A program made the position numbers and the translations under genes. The notes under the pieces were generated by a model. The model made no database searches, was not told where the DNA came from, and saw nothing but the letters and a program-made list of their open reading frames with translations. This document shows positions 16,073 to 26,154 of a stretch of 34,330 nt of DNA, piece after piece. Source of the DNA: a virus; the IMG/VR virus record IMGVR_UViG_3300020436_000003, positions 1-34,330 of that record. One strand, given 5' to 3'. Positions within the stretch are counted from its first letter, which is position 1; each line of letters opens with the position of its first letter.

Positions 16073-17578
16073 TTACCTCCTTCTTTCATAGATATCTCTA
16101 GGTTTTCCACTAAAAACATCAAAATTACGTTTCGCTATTATAGGTTTACTATATTTCGTGCCAATCGTCAACGACCTACCTTCACCTGCACCTAATAATA
16201 AATATTGAAGTGCATCGTGAATATGTGAAAATCTGTTTTTATTTGGGCGTTCATCATAGCGTTCACCTGATACTTGAAGTCGTCTATAATGATAACCACC
16301 TGCAAATCCTCTAATTAAATTAATACAACTTTTATCTATAAGAATACCAGATTCACCATCTACCATTCTTGTTAATGTAGCATTTACACTTTCTAATCTT
16401 ATTAAAACATCATTACTTGGTGCGGGTCGGGCAGTTATACCTTTACCTCTTAATATTTGAAAAGGTGTGTTTTCATCTGTTTGCACTCTATGATCACCGG
16501 CAGGATCGCCAAATATATAAAATGGTCTAGGGTGATACTTTGCCATAGATTGTTTCATTAAGTCAGAAAACTTTACTATACCCATATCTTCAGCTACAAG
16601 TTCTTCTAATACTATCCATCTTGTTCTTATTTTTTGTGCAAATACACAGGCGGGAGTTAATCCAAAATCTATACCCATATAGATTGGTAAGGATTCGGCA
16701 ATAGCTAATTCACCTTTAGCTACGTGTACATCTTGTCTAAATGCTTCATAAACAGGTTTGCCATCTTCTACCTGCCCAAGTTTATTTAATACATATACAT
16801 CTATCCACGATTTTGTTTTTCCTCTAATTATATTTCTATAATAATTTTGTGTAAGGTTGTTTTGATTCTCAGATTGATTATAATTTTTATATTCAACCAC
16901 CTGATTGTTTTTATCTTTAACTTCCTCCATAGCAGGTGGTTGATTAAAAAATTTCCAGTTATCTGGTTTAATCAGCATCTTTGCTTCTTGTTTACTAATA
17001 TAGTCAGGTATAATAGTTTCACCTGCCATTATTGCCCACCAATGATCGGTATCTGGTGGGTTGGTATCGCAAACGACACCATACCATGTTGGGCCACCAT
17101 CACGCATAGATGGAAAACGACCAACACGCATAGAACAAGCATCAACGATACTTTTAGGAATCTCTCGTGCCTCATTTATCCATACCCCCGTTAATTCAAG
17201 AGATAACAGTTTCTTTACATCTTCTGGTCTATCAAGAGCCAAAAAGATTACCTCACAGTCAATATCTCCCTTTTTTAGTTTATGTGTGTAAGGTACACTC
17301 CAAGTAAAACCACCCCAATCTTCTTCGGGAAACCAATCTAGCCAAGTCTTAATTGTGGTTGTTTTAAGCTGTGGATTTGTGTTACGAATAACTGCCCAAC
17401 GGGATTTACGTATTCCTTCTTCATTTGGTTTTTGTGATATGGCTCGTTTTATTATTTCAATACAACAAGCAACAGATTTACCACTTCCTACAGGGCCACG
17501 TATTCCTCTGAAGAAAGTATCATTTTTAAGAAATTCTTTTAGTACCTGTCCATCAGGTTTATAATTTAGTGATGCCAT
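16073..17578 (-). CDS. Terminase large subunit (packaging ATPase/nuclease)
   Basis: A 501-residue protein. The Walker A motif GPVGSGKS is at residues 28-35. Walker B is GVWINEA at 131-137, with Asn-Glu in place of the common Asp-Glu. A coupling motif GVVCDTNPP is at about 167-175. The RNase H-like nuclease domain follows, with candidate metal ligands Asp304 (MGIDFG), Asp358 (FGDPAG) and His454-Asp455 (SHIHDAL). It acts with the portal to pump and cut DNA. TerS lies almost 4 kb upstream with many small genes between, an unusual spacing. The start overlaps the stop of 17559-17753 by 20 nt. Confidence 0.94.
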   Translation of the reverse strand: MASLNYKPDGQVLKEFLKNDTFFRGIRGPVGSGKSVACCIEIIKRAISQKPNEEGIRKSRWAVIRNTNPQLKTTTIKTWLDWFPEEDWGGFTWSVPYTHKLKKGDIDCEVIFLALDRPEDVKKLLSLELTGVWINEAREIPKSIVDACSMRVGRFPSMRDGGPTWYGVVCDTNPPDTDHWWAIMAGETIIPDYISKQEAKMLIKPDNWKFFNQPPAMEEVKDKNNQVVEYKNYNQSENQNNLTQNYYRNIIRGKTKSWIDVYVLNKLGQVEDGKPVYEAFRQDVHVAKGELAIAESLPIYMGIDFGLTPACVFAQKIRTRWIVLEELVAEDMGIVKFSDLMKQSMAKYHPRPFYIFGDPAGDHRVQTDENTPFQILRGKGITARPAPSNDVLIRLESVNATLTRMVDGESGILIDKSCINLIRGFAGGYHYRRLQVSGERYDERPNKNRFSHIHDALQYLLLGAGEGRSLTIGTKYSKPIIAKRNFDVFSGKPRDIYERRR

Positions 17579-21333: not shown

Positions 21334-21720
21334 TTACTTTAGGTCTATGTTGATGCGGAAATCACCCTTGACCATATGTTGGTGCTTGTCTGGTGCTTTA
21401 AATCCTGCCCTGTCAAGTATATCCTTACTAGCTTCTAGCTGTACGTACTCTGATTTAGCACCAGTACATAGGTCAAGCAACCTAGATTGAGCCTTGACAG
21501 CACTCATACCCAAGTTGTGAGTAATCTGTTCAAACATATACTTCTGTACCTCTGGATTCCGTAGCATACGACTTGCACTTACTCTGGAACTATTCCCCTT
21601 GTATCCTGCGACTTTGGATGCTTCTGTAATCGTACATCCTGTTGCTACTAGCGTATCTACTAACTTCTTTGCTCTTGGAGTAATCTTGTTGTCTTTTATT
21701 GCAACGGACATACTCTTCAT
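21334..21720 (-). CDS. Terminase small subunit
   Basis: A 128-residue protein. The N-terminal helix-turn-helix region TPRAKKLVDTLVATGCTITEASKVAGYKGNSSRVSASRMLRNPEVQKYM (about 14-62) is the classical small-terminase DNA-recognition fold. The rest is an oligomerisation helix and a basic tail. It recognises the packaging site and hands DNA to TerL. It is the first gene of the late minus-strand operon. The first ATG (21720) lies inside a possible -10 box and has no ribosome site, so the true start may be the ATG at 21711 (MSVAIKDNK), giving 125 residues. Confidence 0.9.
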   Translation of the reverse strand: MKSMSVAIKDNKITPRAKKLVDTLVATGCTITEASKVAGYKGNSSRVSASRMLRNPEVQKYMFEQITHNLGMSAVKAQSRLLDLCTGAKSEYVQLEASKDILDRAGFKAPDKHQHMVKGDFRINIDLK

Positions 21721-21746
21721 ATATCAGCAACTGTTAAAAAAGTCAA
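21718..21746 (-). promoter_or_regulatory. Candidate sigma70-type late promoter at the TerS start
   Basis: On the minus strand TTGACT (21746-21741) is followed after exactly 17 nt by TATATG (21723-21718). The -35 match is 5 of 6. The -10 keeps TATA but lacks the final T. Transcription would begin near 21711, which is the A of the second ATG of TerS, implying a leaderless mRNA. The phage encodes no RNA polymerase, so host-type promoters are expected. Confidence 0.4.
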
Positions 21747-21753
21747 CATACCT

Positions 21754-21819
21754 GTTCTTCACTGATGAAGAACCAAATCACCTCACAGGGGTGAGATACT
21801 GCTGATGCTTCAGCAGTAT
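21754..21819. other. Three consecutive hairpins upstream of the late operon
   Basis: Perfect inverted repeats follow one another: GTTCTTCA/TGAAGAAC (21754-21761 and 21766-21773, loop CTGA); CTCAC/GTGAG (21782-21786 and 21791-21795, loop AGGG); ATACTGCTGA/TCAGCAGTAT (21796-21805 and 21810-21819, loop TGCT). The second and third abut. None is followed by a T-run. They may be protein-binding sites of the divergent control region or part of a folded leader. The region 21721-22144 has no gene. Confidence 0.7.
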
Positions 21820-21844
21820 GTGACAAAGCTAATTGATAAGTCCA

Positions 21845-22060
21845 GAAATATCATAGAAACAGGCCCTGCCAAAGTAGGCAGGGTTTTTGGGTATCAACTG
21901 GATCTCCAATAAAGACTCGCTTGGCAATTCATTCTTTTGGGCAATCCCAAAGTAGGGATTGCACTTTATTATTCAATTGCACAGACTCCTAGACTTTTTT
22001 GTCGGGGCTTCGGGAAAGCCCCTAGATTCAGTTGATACCCAAAAATTTCTATGATATTTC
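21845..22060 (+). ncRNA. Large two-junction structured element in the divergent control region
   Basis: P1 pairs 21845-21859 with 22046-22060 (15 bp). P3 pairs 21884-21905 with 22024-22045 (22 bp, one G-U at 21901/22028). P2 is a hairpin 21864-21870/21877-21883 inserted in the 5-prime strand only. On the 3-prime side P1 and P3 are contiguous, giving a tight three-way junction. Inside P3 lie P4 (21924-21929/21975-21980) enclosing P5 (21941-21948/21955-21962), and P6 (22004-22010/22016-22022), 1 nt from P3. P2 and P5 share the loop AAAGTA. The G-U pair would be C-A on the other strand, favouring plus-strand RNA. A DNA cruciform, origin or terminase-recognition element is an alternative. It resembles no RNA family I know. 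Confidence 0.7.
21864..21888 (+). terminator. Intrinsic-terminator-like hairpin (P2 of the large element)
   Basis: CCCTGCC/GGCAGGG, 7 bp, loop AAAGTA, followed directly by five T. In isolation this is a textbook Rho-independent terminator on the plus strand. However, its T-run is also the start of helix P3, so termination and folding of the large element may be alternatives. Confidence 0.5.
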
Positions 22061-22080
22061 GTTCCCGAATTATGAAATAT
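22054..22080 (+). other. Hairpin competing with helix P1
   Basis: ATATTTC (22054-22060) pairs with GAAATAT (22074-22080) across 13 nt. The first arm is also the end of the P1 3-prime strand, so the two pairings exclude each other. The second arm overlaps the possible -10 box at 22078. Confidence 0.4.
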
Positions 22081-22144: not shown

Positions 22145-22735
22145 ATGAGTAAATCTACAAAACAACAACCTGTCCAACAAGGTAAATACATTGAAACTTC
22201 AGTATATGTACCTATGAAGGATACTATGTTACAACTTGCCGATTCAGGTTACCTTGATGACGTAGCATTTCAAACTTCATCTGTACCTTTTCTTGGTATA
22301 TACAAAGACCTTACTGCTTTAGATGAACACTTCTATGGTGGTTACTTCTTATCCAATTCCATTATGGAAAAGGTTGCAGATGAATTGACAAGACAACTTA
22401 AATACAATGTCAAAAGGATGCTTGAAATCAATGATGATATTGCACTTGATGATGTATGGTCATCACATCTTGATGGTAAAGATTTAAATCAGATGTTTGG
22501 TAATCCTAACTCTCTTGCAGATGCAATGAAGGATTATCGTGACCCAGATGTAACTCTTCGTAGAGAACAAGAAAGAATGTTGTCCATTACATCTATTTAT
22601 CACATCTATATGGCTCTTGTTGATATACTTGAATGCATTGCCAAAGTAAATAATGGCAATGAATACAAGCCATATGAACCTAAAACTACTGCAAAGAAAA
22701 AGAAATCTTTTAAAGATACAAGGGATTTCTCTTAG
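22145..22735 (+). CDS. First early gene, unknown function
   Basis: A 196-residue soluble protein starting MSKSTKQQPVQQGKYIETSVYVP and ending in a Lys-rich tail KTTAKKKKSFKDTRDFS. The centre is helical and acidic (NVKRMLEINDDIALDDVWSSHLDGKDLNQMF), with SITSIYHIYMALVDILECIAKV as a long helix near residue 150. An AGGAG site lies 8 nt before the ATG. It is framed by the two main non-coding structured regions and has its own terminator (22755), so it is probably a separate immediate-early transcript. The family is not recognised. A host-takeover role is only a guess from timing and position. Confidence 0.82.
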   Translation: MSKSTKQQPVQQGKYIETSVYVPMKDTMLQLADSGYLDDVAFQTSSVPFLGIYKDLTALDEHFYGGYFLSNSIMEKVADELTRQLKYNVKRMLEINDDIALDDVWSSHLDGKDLNQMFGNPNSLADAMKDYRDPDVTLRREQERMLSITSIYHIYMALVDILECIAKVNNGNEYKPYEPKTTAKKKKSFKDTRDFS

Positions 22736-22754
22736 GTTTCCTTCCGACGATAAG

Positions 22755-22780
22755 GGTAGAACACAAGTTCTACCTTTATT
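22755..22780 (+). terminator. Rho-independent terminator after the first early gene
   Basis: GGTAGAAC/GTTCTACC, 8 bp, loop ACAA, followed by TTTATT. The stem extends outward by a G-U (22754/22775) and two A-T pairs. It lies 20 nt after the stop at 22735. Confidence 0.8.
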
Positions 22781-22799
22781 GTTGCTAGTCCTCTGATGA

Positions 22800-22872
22800 T
22801 TCAGGTAACTGCTAAAGCAGTTGCTGAAACATTATATTTGATTTCAGGTAACTGCTAAAGCAGTTGCTGAAA
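22800..22872 (+). repeat. Tandem pair of identical 30-nt hairpin repeats
   Basis: 22800-22829 and 22843-22872 are identical over 30 nt, separated by 13 nt. Each folds as TTCAG ... AACTGC-TAAA-GCAGTT ... CTGAA with a small 2/1 internal loop. The motif CAGTTGCTGA inside each copy also occurs on the minus strand just upstream of TerS (21734-21725). Two copies with a 13-nt spacer are too few and too palindromic to be a CRISPR array. Confidence 0.8.
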
Positions 22873-22875
22873 ACA

Positions 22876-23138
22876 CCCACAACACACATACGTTGTGGGG
22901 GAGATTCGTACTAAAATCAAATCACTATCATCAGATGTCTATGTGTATCTACAAGACTTCATAGATAAAGCGTGGTACAATTCCACGACTGTGAAGTCCT
23001 GTAGTTGCATAGCCCGACTAGTTGCTATAAAACTGACTAGCAATGTGCAACTATGTCAAGACTAAATAGGTTTGAATCCTATGCTTGGCACAAGGTTTTG
23101 TAGCTTGTACCTTGTAGACGGACTGTGATACTTACAGT
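22876..23138 (+). ncRNA. Contiguous array of hairpins in a gene-free region, candidate structured RNA
   Basis: After the 30-nt repeats follow: 22876-22883/22892-22899 (8 bp); 22949-22953 plus 22955-22961 with 22992-22998 plus 23000-23004 (12 bp, one mismatch), containing 22971-22975/22983-22987; 23005-23009/23046-23050 with inner 23022-23027/23038-23043; 23054-23060/23084-23090 enclosing 23066-23070/23078-23082; 23090-23096/23109-23115; and 23122-23126/23134-23138. From 22949 on, the helices abut. A U-G pair (23056/23088) favours the plus strand. No frame of useful length is present between 22736 and 23212. A tRNA was considered and rejected. The RNA class is unknown. Confidence 0.65.
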
Positions 23139-23212
23139 TGATCAGGTTAGTTATGCCGTTGGTGACAAAAACAAGTTACACTTTTATTAGACTAAAAACA
23201 AAGGAGTATATT

Positions 23213-24009: not shown

Positions 24010-24870
24010 ATGTTAGATGATATAAAACAAGACTACGAGTTTCCAACAGAAATGGTGGAACTTGAAGCACTAAACACGACAGGCCAGATTGGTAAAGACA
24101 ATTACAAAGTACCTACTGATATGGCTAGAGCGTGTGTACGTACAGATACCGGACAGGTTCTGGGTATTCACGGCAGTAAATACAAACCTATCGCACACAA
24201 AGATGTTGTTGACAATGTAATGCAAGGTGTTGATAAAACAGGCATTACAGACTACAAAACAGATATCAAAATATTTGAAAATGGTGCAAAGATGCGAGGA
24301 TCTGTAACATTTGAAAACCTTGTCATTGAACCACAAAAAGATGATATCATTAAGTTTCGTATCAACTTCTTCAATTCATATGATCAATCGTGGGCATTCT
24401 CTACAATTTGTGATGGCTTACGCTTGTGGTGTATGAATGGTTGCACAACACCTGTCAATGCTTCTACTTTGCGATTCAAACATACAACAAAAGTAAATAT
24501 TCAAAGTATCAAAGAGCGTGTTTTAGCAGGATACCACTTCTTCAAAGACAGTGGTAAAGAATATTCTGAATGGGCAACTATCCGATTGAGTAATAATTCA
24601 GTTCAAAGGTTCTTAGAACAAACTGTAGCTAAAACATTTAAGCGTTCATCTAACTCAATACCATTCAATATAACAAGAACAGAAACATTGCTTGAAGGTT
24701 TTGATCGTGAGAGTCGTTCATTAGGTAATACAAAGTGGGCGTTATACAATGCTCTTACATATTGGTCTACTCATACTGAAGGAGAGCGTGAACACGCTAT
24801 TCGTAAGCGTAGAGAAGATGAAGTAGCTAAAGCACTAGGTTCTAAACAATGGCAAGAACTAGTTGCATAG
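24010..24870 (+). CDS. DUF932 (phage/plasmid TIGR03299-like) protein
   Basis: A 286-residue protein. The family pattern is clear: VRTDTGQVLGIHGSKYKPIAH near residues 38-58, then KTDIKIFENGAKMRGSVTF, FRINFFNSYDQSWAFSTICDGLRLWCMNGCT (about 117-147) and a C-terminal helical region with WALYNALTYWSTHT. DUF932 proteins occur on plasmids and phages near recombination or replication genes. The biochemical role is unknown. Here it lies upstream of the replication and recombination genes of the early operon and has the strong site AAAGGAG. Confidence 0.9.
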   Translation: MLDDIKQDYEFPTEMVELEALNTTGQIGKDNYKVPTDMARACVRTDTGQVLGIHGSKYKPIAHKDVVDNVMQGVDKTGITDYKTDIKIFENGAKMRGSVTFENLVIEPQKDDIIKFRINFFNSYDQSWAFSTICDGLRLWCMNGCTTPVNASTLRFKHTTKVNIQSIKERVLAGYHFFKDSGKEYSEWATIRLSNNSVQRFLEQTVAKTFKRSSNSIPFNITRTETLLEGFDRESRSLGNTKWALYNALTYWSTHTEGEREHAIRKRREDEVAKALGSKQWQELVA

Positions 24871-24912
24871 TAGTATATTAATAGTATAATAATAGTACGA
24901 AAGGAATATATT

Positions 24913-25298: not shown

Positions 25299-25679
25299 AT
25301 GGATAAATATATTGTTGACTTAAAATTTGATCGCAAAACTTTAAAGTATGGTAAGTCGCCAAACACTTGTGAGTTTATTGATTTTCATTTAGATAATCCA
25401 AAAGTCTGGGAACTGTACCTACAATTTGCATCTGATATGGTACATCACGGACACAAAAAATTATCAAGTGAAATGCTTATTAATCGTGTTCGTTGGGAAA
25501 CAATGGTAAATACTACTGACAAACAATTCAAAATAAATAACAATCATAAACCTTATTATGCAAGACTCTTGCTCTCAACAAAAAGGTTTAAGAATACAAA
25601 GTTCCTTGAAGTTAGACAAAGCTGTGCAGATGACTTATCATATTCCGAATGTGAAATATTGATGAGTCCATATGTATAG
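25299..25679 (+). CDS. Conserved phage protein of unknown function
   Basis: A 126-residue protein. The start at 25299 follows the same ACAAAGGAGTATATTATG element as the gene at 23213. The segment HGHKKLSSEMLINRVRWETMV and the later FKINNNHKPYYARLLL match a widespread uncharacterised phage protein family (roughly ..G.k..s...i..riRWe......kiNN...p.yaR). Such proteins lie near replication genes in many phages. Function is unknown. The stop overlaps the HTH gene start by 8 nt. Confidence 0.82.
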   Translation: MDKYIVDLKFDRKTLKYGKSPNTCEFIDFHLDNPKVWELYLQFASDMVHHGHKKLSSEMLINRVRWETMVNTTDKQFKINNNHKPYYARLLLSTKRFKNTKFLEVRQSCADDLSYSECEILMSPYV

Positions 25680-26154
25680 AATTGCAGTCAAAGAATTACA
25701 AGAAAGACGGCAACACCTAGGATTATCTTCGCAAGAAGTTGCAGAAAAACTAGGTGTTTCCGATTCGTTAGTATCGCTTTGGGAATGTGGTAAAAAGCAA
25801 CCAAGCAGCACTATGTTTTTTAATTGGATAACTGTGCTCGGCTTTAACTTTATTCTCAATGTACATCAATCTCAAATCCCAAAAACTTTTGAGCCAAGCT
25901 ACGATACAAAGCGTTGGATTACAGAAGAATTTGGAGAAAGGTATAACTATGAGCAAGAACTTAAAATCTTTATCAACCATTATCGGGCAGGTGGAACACA
26001 TAAATCAGATTGGCAATACGCTTTCCGATCTTGGCTATTGCGTTCCAAGAAATTCCAATCCAATACAACTCAAACCACCAAAGATACTCAAGAACGCCGT
26101 GAACGAATCAATAATGTCTTTGCTATTAGCAATCAAACAAAACAAAGTAGATAA
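25672..26154 (+). CDS. HTH protein with DnaT-like C-terminus, putative replication initiator
   Basis: A 160-residue protein. An XRE-type helix-turn-helix spans about residues 7-45 (LSSQEVAEKLGVSDSLVSLWE at 18-38). Residues about 84-128, with FINHYRAGGTHKSDWQYAFR and WLLRSKKF, match the C-terminal domain found in DnaT-like and phage replication initiator proteins (f..y....g..ksDW...fr.W...). In gene order it precedes the putative loader, like lambda O before P. It probably binds an origin and recruits host helicase machinery. A plain regulator is an alternative. The last 206 nt also encode the start of the next gene in another frame. Confidence 0.75.
   Translation: MYRIAVKELQERRQHLGLSSQEVAEKLGVSDSLVSLWECGKKQPSSTMFFNWITVLGFNFILNVHQSQIPKTFEPSYDTKRWITEEFGERYNYEQELKIFINHYRAGGTHKSDWQYAFRSWLLRSKKFQSNTTQTTKDTQERRERINNVFAISNQTKQSR

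Follow-up and report, generated by a model that had tools for sequence, protein, structure and literature searches.

A family of very large, fast-evolving hairpins, which would form in RNA, is fixed at the divergent gene junction of SAR11-type podophages. Compensated changes preserve the stems, and the strand that retains pairing is the one with the sense of terS, the gene for the small terminase subunit (the minus strand of the window, by which we mean the whole 34,330-nt stretch of DNA analyzed). We give a probability of about 0.36 to the reading that the hairpin is a structured terS-sense RNA that would act in cis at the boundary between early and late genes; a single-stranded DNA (ssDNA) replication signal is its main rival. 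The original prediction of a branched fold at this control point is supported, and the structure is real and under selection; what was not supported is the assignment of the RNA to the plus strand. SAR11-type podoviruses are among the most abundant viruses of the sea, and to our knowledge their gene control is almost unstudied. Our search of the open-licence literature found no published description of terS-junction hairpins. Since a cultured isolate, EXVC031P Hodr (host HTCC1062), carries such a hairpin, the reading is testable.

The window represents a podophage genome that is complete and circular. The 77 identical bases common to both ends resemble an assembly overlap, giving a genome length of ~34.25 kb; on the pac question, this 77-bp overlap at the assembly ends yields no physical genome ends. 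The phage is a SAR11-type marine podovirus. Pelagibacter phage EXVC031P Hodr is its nearest isolate and supplies the nearest record of the portal (79% identity), and among 50,697 phage records Hodr alone has a matching terS. (The record OQ414635, our locus L081, is titled EXVC031P Hodr and carries the locus tags EXVC032PBaldr; the names were possibly mixed up in the deposit.) The leftward block, on the minus strand, runs from the terS-like gene through terL and the portal to the structural genes, while the rightward genes (from 22145) include SSB, a YqaJ exonuclease, a RusA-like resolvase and a protein with HTH and DnaT-like parts. A scan of part of the gene set revealed no polymerase, helicase or primase. 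We infer the labels "early" and "late" of the two blocks from gene content. Relatives have at the place of the terS promoter a near-consensus TTGACA-N16-18-TATACT or similar, a consensus match, and in many of them it lies at or just past the right arm of the hairpin. As separate observations, the HTH and DnaT-like protein (25672-26154), which has a homologue of 34.5% identity in Hodr, is a possible replication initiator or primosome adaptor, and an iteron-like, AT-rich 11-nt tandem repeat of 2.8 copies, between two rightward genes at 24867-24897, could be an origin element.

Table 1. Hairpins, genes and promoter-like sequence at the terS junction of the window
Feature	Positions	Strand	Remarks
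Giant hairpin element, whole	21845..22060	-	terS-sense proposed as folding strand
P1 arms	21845..21859 with 22046..22060		15/15 pairs
P3 arms	21884..21905 with 22024..22045		21/22 pairs
P2 hairpin at three-way junction	21864..21883		Loop variable; stem kept, compensated once
Inner hairpin, loop identical to that of P2 (CCTACTTTGG, minus strand)	21941..21962		GC-rich
Inner GC-rich hairpin, 7 bp	22004..22022
Satellite hairpin in gap between element and terS	21796..21819		Compensated changes in 4/10 pairs
Satellite hairpin GTTCTTC..GAAGAAC adjoining terS	21754..21773		Surroundings retained in more distant relatives
terS-like gene (small terminase subunit), first of leftward block	21334..21720	-	Pfam Terminase_2 E = 4e-9; PHROG 51 E = 1e-12
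Divergent gene	22145..22735	+	Without Pfam or PHROG match
Promoter-like TTGACT..GATATA, directly upstream of terS	21720..21746	-	Consensus match only

P1, P3, P2 and the inner hairpins lie where they had been predicted, in a gene-free stretch of the divergent intergenic region (Table 1), and the single P3 pair outside the Watson-Crick set is, as claimed, G-U in the plus sense; in the minus sense it is A.C. In the window, the element occupies the space that separates terS from the divergent gene, without overlapping either of them. The structure is wider than first described, with two further hairpins towards terS, of which the one at 21796-21819 covaries. Folding beyond chance had been foreseen and was found on both strands (z about -10): the minimum free energy of 21840-22065 as RNA was -99.4 kcal/mol on each strand, against -52.8 +/- 4.5 for shuffled sequences, with a z of -10.5 on the plus strand and -10.3 on the minus strand and 0 of 200 shuffles as good. 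Folding as DNA gave -56.9 (z -11.6). In a tiled scan of the 34.3-kb genome, the element was the top inverted repeat with a score of 19; the next one scored 15 and the median was 10. The genome's second strongest inverted repeat, with 22-nt arms, is inside the terL gene (16882-16953).

Read in the plus sense, a T5 run comes after P2; it is terminator-like and is kept in all five close loci described below, so that a plus transcript might terminate within the element. The element as a whole has no T run behind it in either orientation, and P2-T5 leaves the long arms unexplained. The loop sequence CCTACTTTGG (minus strand) has only two copies in the genome, 21869-21878 and 21947-21956, both of them hairpin loops of the element; in the relative L183 both loops have switched jointly to CCTTCTTTGG. 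A second gene-free structured stretch (22740-23150, RNA z -9.0) comes right after the divergent gene. It contains two exact 30-nt near-palindromes (22800-22829 and 22843-22872) and, near 23065, a segment like a tRNA T arm, AATAGGTTTGAATCCTAT; its sequence is conserved in close relatives, with hairpins that show paired changes, and parts of it recur in more distant ones.

Compensation was assessed in a close set of five loci, the window and four relatives, with terS 98 to 99% identical or nearly so. The outer stem, the junction hairpin and a satellite hairpin are kept in this set and the interior varies; when the outer parts are aligned, 98.1% of the cells are paired. Both sides had changed in 15 of the 54 pairs, a number reached by 0 of 500 shuffles, and sliding one arm by 1 to 3 columns left only 1 to 3 compensated pairs. 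The check for compensatory changes thus favoured the structure. Nine of the 22 P3 pairs carry compensated changes, as when GGGTATCAAC..GTTGATACCC becomes GGGGGTCAAA..TTTGACCCCC; P1 has one fully compensated pair, G-C to C-G, in L088; and in the satellite stem ATACTGCTGA is replaced by ATACCCTTGA and ATAGCCTTGA, each with matching partners. Comparison of related loci yielded 149 double Watson-Crick changes versus 90 single G.T or A.C changes; where identity is high, changes are scarce and tend to be single, and where it is lower, double ones are numerous. Compensation above both the shuffles and the slid controls means that the pairing is under selection, as secondary structure of RNA or of ssDNA. 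One relative, L181, joins an outer stem like that of the window to an inner module like that of L179 (96% over 79 nt), indicating that modules recombine.

To place the element among relatives, junctions were gathered from viral contigs via terS and redundancy was removed (n = 101); a hairpin was counted when an inverted repeat with a score of at least 30 lay at most 800 bases upstream of terS. Loss of the element in relatives was looked for; instead, 72 of the 101 non-redundant relatives had a long inverted repeat there, versus 0 of 165 equally long downstream windows from the same contigs (mostly coding) and 0 of 101 shuffled junctions. An earlier scoring had given 53% of junctions and 0.4% of control windows. 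By blastn, hairpins of different clades have little or no sequence in common, exchanged modules excepted. Sequences are thus mostly unrelated across clades while position and hairpin shape persist, and the same place and folded form despite unrelated letters imply that the folding itself is selected. No comparable inverted repeat was present in HTVC010P or in OM43 phage MEP301, and the 50,697 phage records held no sequence homologue of the element. Small conserved unpaired segments flank the inner hairpins. Two local patterns were also seen. Four relatives (L102, L165, L112 and L111) have the inner module GTTAAATTGGGGGGAACC-TACTTCA-GGGGGAACCGATTTAAT, with the direct repeat GGGGGAACC, within otherwise differing hairpins, and in a distant clade (L204, L205, L213 and L215) the promoter is directly followed by a conserved terS leader that contains a pair of G-runs, GGGGGGGAACACAAGGGGGGG or variants of it.

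The folding strand was judged from isolated mismatches in the arms, all scored alike and read on the terS-sense strand. Across the 72 hairpin-bearing relatives there were 159 G.T and 21 A.C mismatches, an excess of 6.1-fold over composition (P = 5e-22), which predicts a ratio of ~1.2; the other classes were A.G 135, C.T 66, G.G 36, C.C 8, T.T 61 and A.A 35. The G.T excess was alike in the outer and inner halves of the arms. It was strongest (67:6) in phages with terS 55 to 62% identical to that of the window; the group of the window itself showed the same direction with a smaller excess (25:8, P = 0.008), and at Hodr-type loci G.T and A.C were about equal. The family-wide excess indicates that folding takes place in a single strand, the one with the terS sense. 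The original prediction had preferred a functional RNA of the plus strand because of the single G-U pair in P3, and the family counts speak against it. In the five closest loci, one G-U and three A.C cells in the terS sense cannot tell the strand, and because these window-type loci are near even, the strand case for the window leans on the wider group. The window alone is insufficient to decide the strand, and the family data outweigh a single plus-strand wobble. Strand-biased deamination was rejected as the main cause of the G.T excess, since composition is nearly even and G.G:C.C (36:8) is skewed as well.

Whether the folding strand is RNA or DNA is less clear. We lean toward RNA as the folding molecule and give ssDNA limited weight. 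DNA duplexes tolerate G.A and G.T about equally under nearest-neighbour rules. The A.G:C.T excess is just 1.8-fold (135:66), far below that of G.T:A.C; DNA stability predicts similar values for the two, so the small A.G:C.T excess favours RNA. The hairpin loops point the other way. Stable RNA tetraloops (GNRA, UUCG) were not enriched in the hairpins; enriched instead were cGNAg triloops, which have great stability in DNA. On the terS-sense strand, 10 cGAAg triloop hairpins were observed versus 0.45 expected, and 6 gCTTGc loops versus 0.17 expected. Mismatch classes favour RNA, and loop statistics (cGNAg) favour DNA.

It is conceivable, if not the outcome we expect, that the terS-sense strand is exposed in replication as the lagging-strand template of a leftward-moving fork, folds, and recruits the host primosome or helicase, perhaps via the HTH and DnaT-like protein, which both the window and Hodr encode. 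Such a signal would need no promoter, and no conserved terS-sense promoter was found upstream of the hairpin in relatives; the one candidate upstream promoter in the window (minus strand, 22858-22831) is lost in L187. The element folds well as DNA, DNA too tolerates G.T better than A.C, and the enriched small loops would suit a DNA signal. Against these points stand the gap between the two mismatch excesses and the length of the arms, since a primosome site needs no 200- to 300-bp arms running through coding sequence; no GC-skew evidence could be separated from gene direction. Were the ssDNA signal true, the element could show how a phage without its own replisome begins to replicate.

At Hodr-type loci the hairpin extends into coding sequence: the arms reach ~300 bp and cover the start of the divergent gene, the promoter of terS and its first codons. 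L119 has 294 Watson-Crick pairs between a stretch that begins ~290 bases inside the divergent gene and one that ends inside terS. Its arms hold both ribosome sites and the terS promoter TTGACA-N-TATACT. The Hodr-type divergent gene, which starts inside the hairpin arm, is unrelated to that of the window, and the right arm, as read from sequence, resembles an inverted copy of the start of the divergent gene, with stop codons soon after. Synonymous codon identity among 14 homologues of this Hodr-type divergent gene was ~0.68 over codons 1 to 48, the best-pairing part, versus ~0.56 beyond. An origin of terS and the divergent gene as paralogues by simple inverted duplication was rejected, as the proteins are unrelated.

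These overlaps suggest how a cis-acting terS-sense RNA could work. The RNA would arise when RNA polymerase passes over the junction towards terS, either by antisense read-through of the rightward genes on a circular or concatemeric genome or from an upstream promoter. The long duplex would hold an antisense copy of the start of the divergent gene together with the region upstream of terS, and at Hodr-type loci it would also take in the terS ribosome site and first codons. Crossing transcripts would thus be folded, cleaved by RNase III or kept from translation, and expression of terS and the rest of the leftward block would come solely from the terS promoter, which is located at the hairpin or slightly past it. 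Sequestration of this kind is not visible in the window because its hairpin overlaps neither the divergent gene nor the terS start.

A bolder version of the cis-acting RNA, which we hold to be doubtful, is that only a very long terS-sense duplex at the junction is inherited, neither its sequence nor a fixed fold, making it a new class of control element. Lineages would keep remaking or repairing an RNA hairpin of 50 to 300 bp, even through a gene start and codons, and this hairpin would set the border of early and late expression. If the RNA reading is true, the switch would be built from duplex length alone.

Three other explanations fare less well than the ssDNA signal. The hairpin could be a stand-alone, trans-acting phage RNA, serving packaging by a logic like that of phi29 pRNA or acting as a decoy for host RNA-binding or defence proteins, in which shape rather than sequence counts. 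Shape conserved with almost no conserved sequence would agree with this, as would the inner modules swapped between different outer stems (L179 and L181) and the small conserved unpaired segments; we nevertheless consider it improbable, as no promoter/terminator pair frames the element, a normal terS is encoded, the position is tied to the terS junction, and the arms overlap coding sequence in many relatives. A cruciform or protein-binding palindrome at the level of double-stranded DNA, such as an operator or pac site, would explain why the element adjoins terS (a usual place of pac), why the terS promoter is in or beside an arm and why mismatches are even at Hodr-type loci; it fits poorly because a cruciform needs both strands and the mismatch bias is strand specific. 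A bias of 159:21 is unexpected if both strands fold or a protein reads the duplex, and the clades have no common sequence for a protein to read, which makes this explanation quite improbable. Equally improbable is a functionless by-product of recurrent inverted duplication and template switching that make and re-perfect palindromes, which would account for arms that often resemble inverted divergent-gene starts in which the copied start codon is shortly followed by stops, for the many small indels and for a separate sequence in every clade, but not for a strand-specific mismatch bias despite near-even base composition, for single changes at high identity and double ones at lower identity as in stepwise compensation, for the fixed position or for the stronger conservation of synonymous codons where the divergent gene is paired.

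Known RNA families were rejected as an identity for the element: Rfam 15 gave no match at the gathering threshold in the window or in 15 relatives, leaving it without a matching family, and a permissive search returned only rli53 (19.2 bits against a threshold of 70) and freshwater-2 (22.4 against 49.9). tRNA and tmRNA were likewise rejected, none being found. The phi29-type pRNA has its own promoter, is ~120 to 174 nt long and occurs in phages without a classical terS. Like it, the terS-junction hairpin is a phage element whose branched fold is preserved by compensated changes as the sequence diverges; it differs in occurring beside a terS, in having no promoter that we could find, and in a size of up to ~700 nt with overlap into genes. 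Membership in the pRNA class, which packs DNA without a TerS protein, was rejected in view of the adjacent terS-like gene with its Terminase_2 match.

The G4 complementary-strand origin and the phiX174 primosome assembly site are strand-specific ssDNA hairpins with very stable small loops. The junction hairpins resemble them in strand specificity and stable small loops, and a phage that uses the replisome of its host would be well served by such a signal; the known signals, however, are short with defined sequence, whereas here arms reach 300 bp with no common sequence. Structured mRNA leaders, put-type antitermination RNAs and phage RNase III sites place hairpins near the starts of late operons. 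Unlike in mRNA leaders and put RNAs, transcripts from the terS promoter do not contain the hairpin, since this promoter lies on its 3' side or past it. Many GOLLD and ROOL RNAs are found in phages and prophages. They have conserved sequence and Rfam models, whereas the terS-junction hairpins have no match and are dominated by one long duplex. As large structured RNAs, the junction hairpins would resemble GOLLD and ROOL, which are large and ornate (PMC12286853). Structured phage RNAs with diverged sequence are already known (pRNA; GOLLD and ROOL, PMC12286853). At the terS junction, place and shape are kept while the letters are replaced; sequence-based RNA searches would miss such elements, and similar ones may be widespread.
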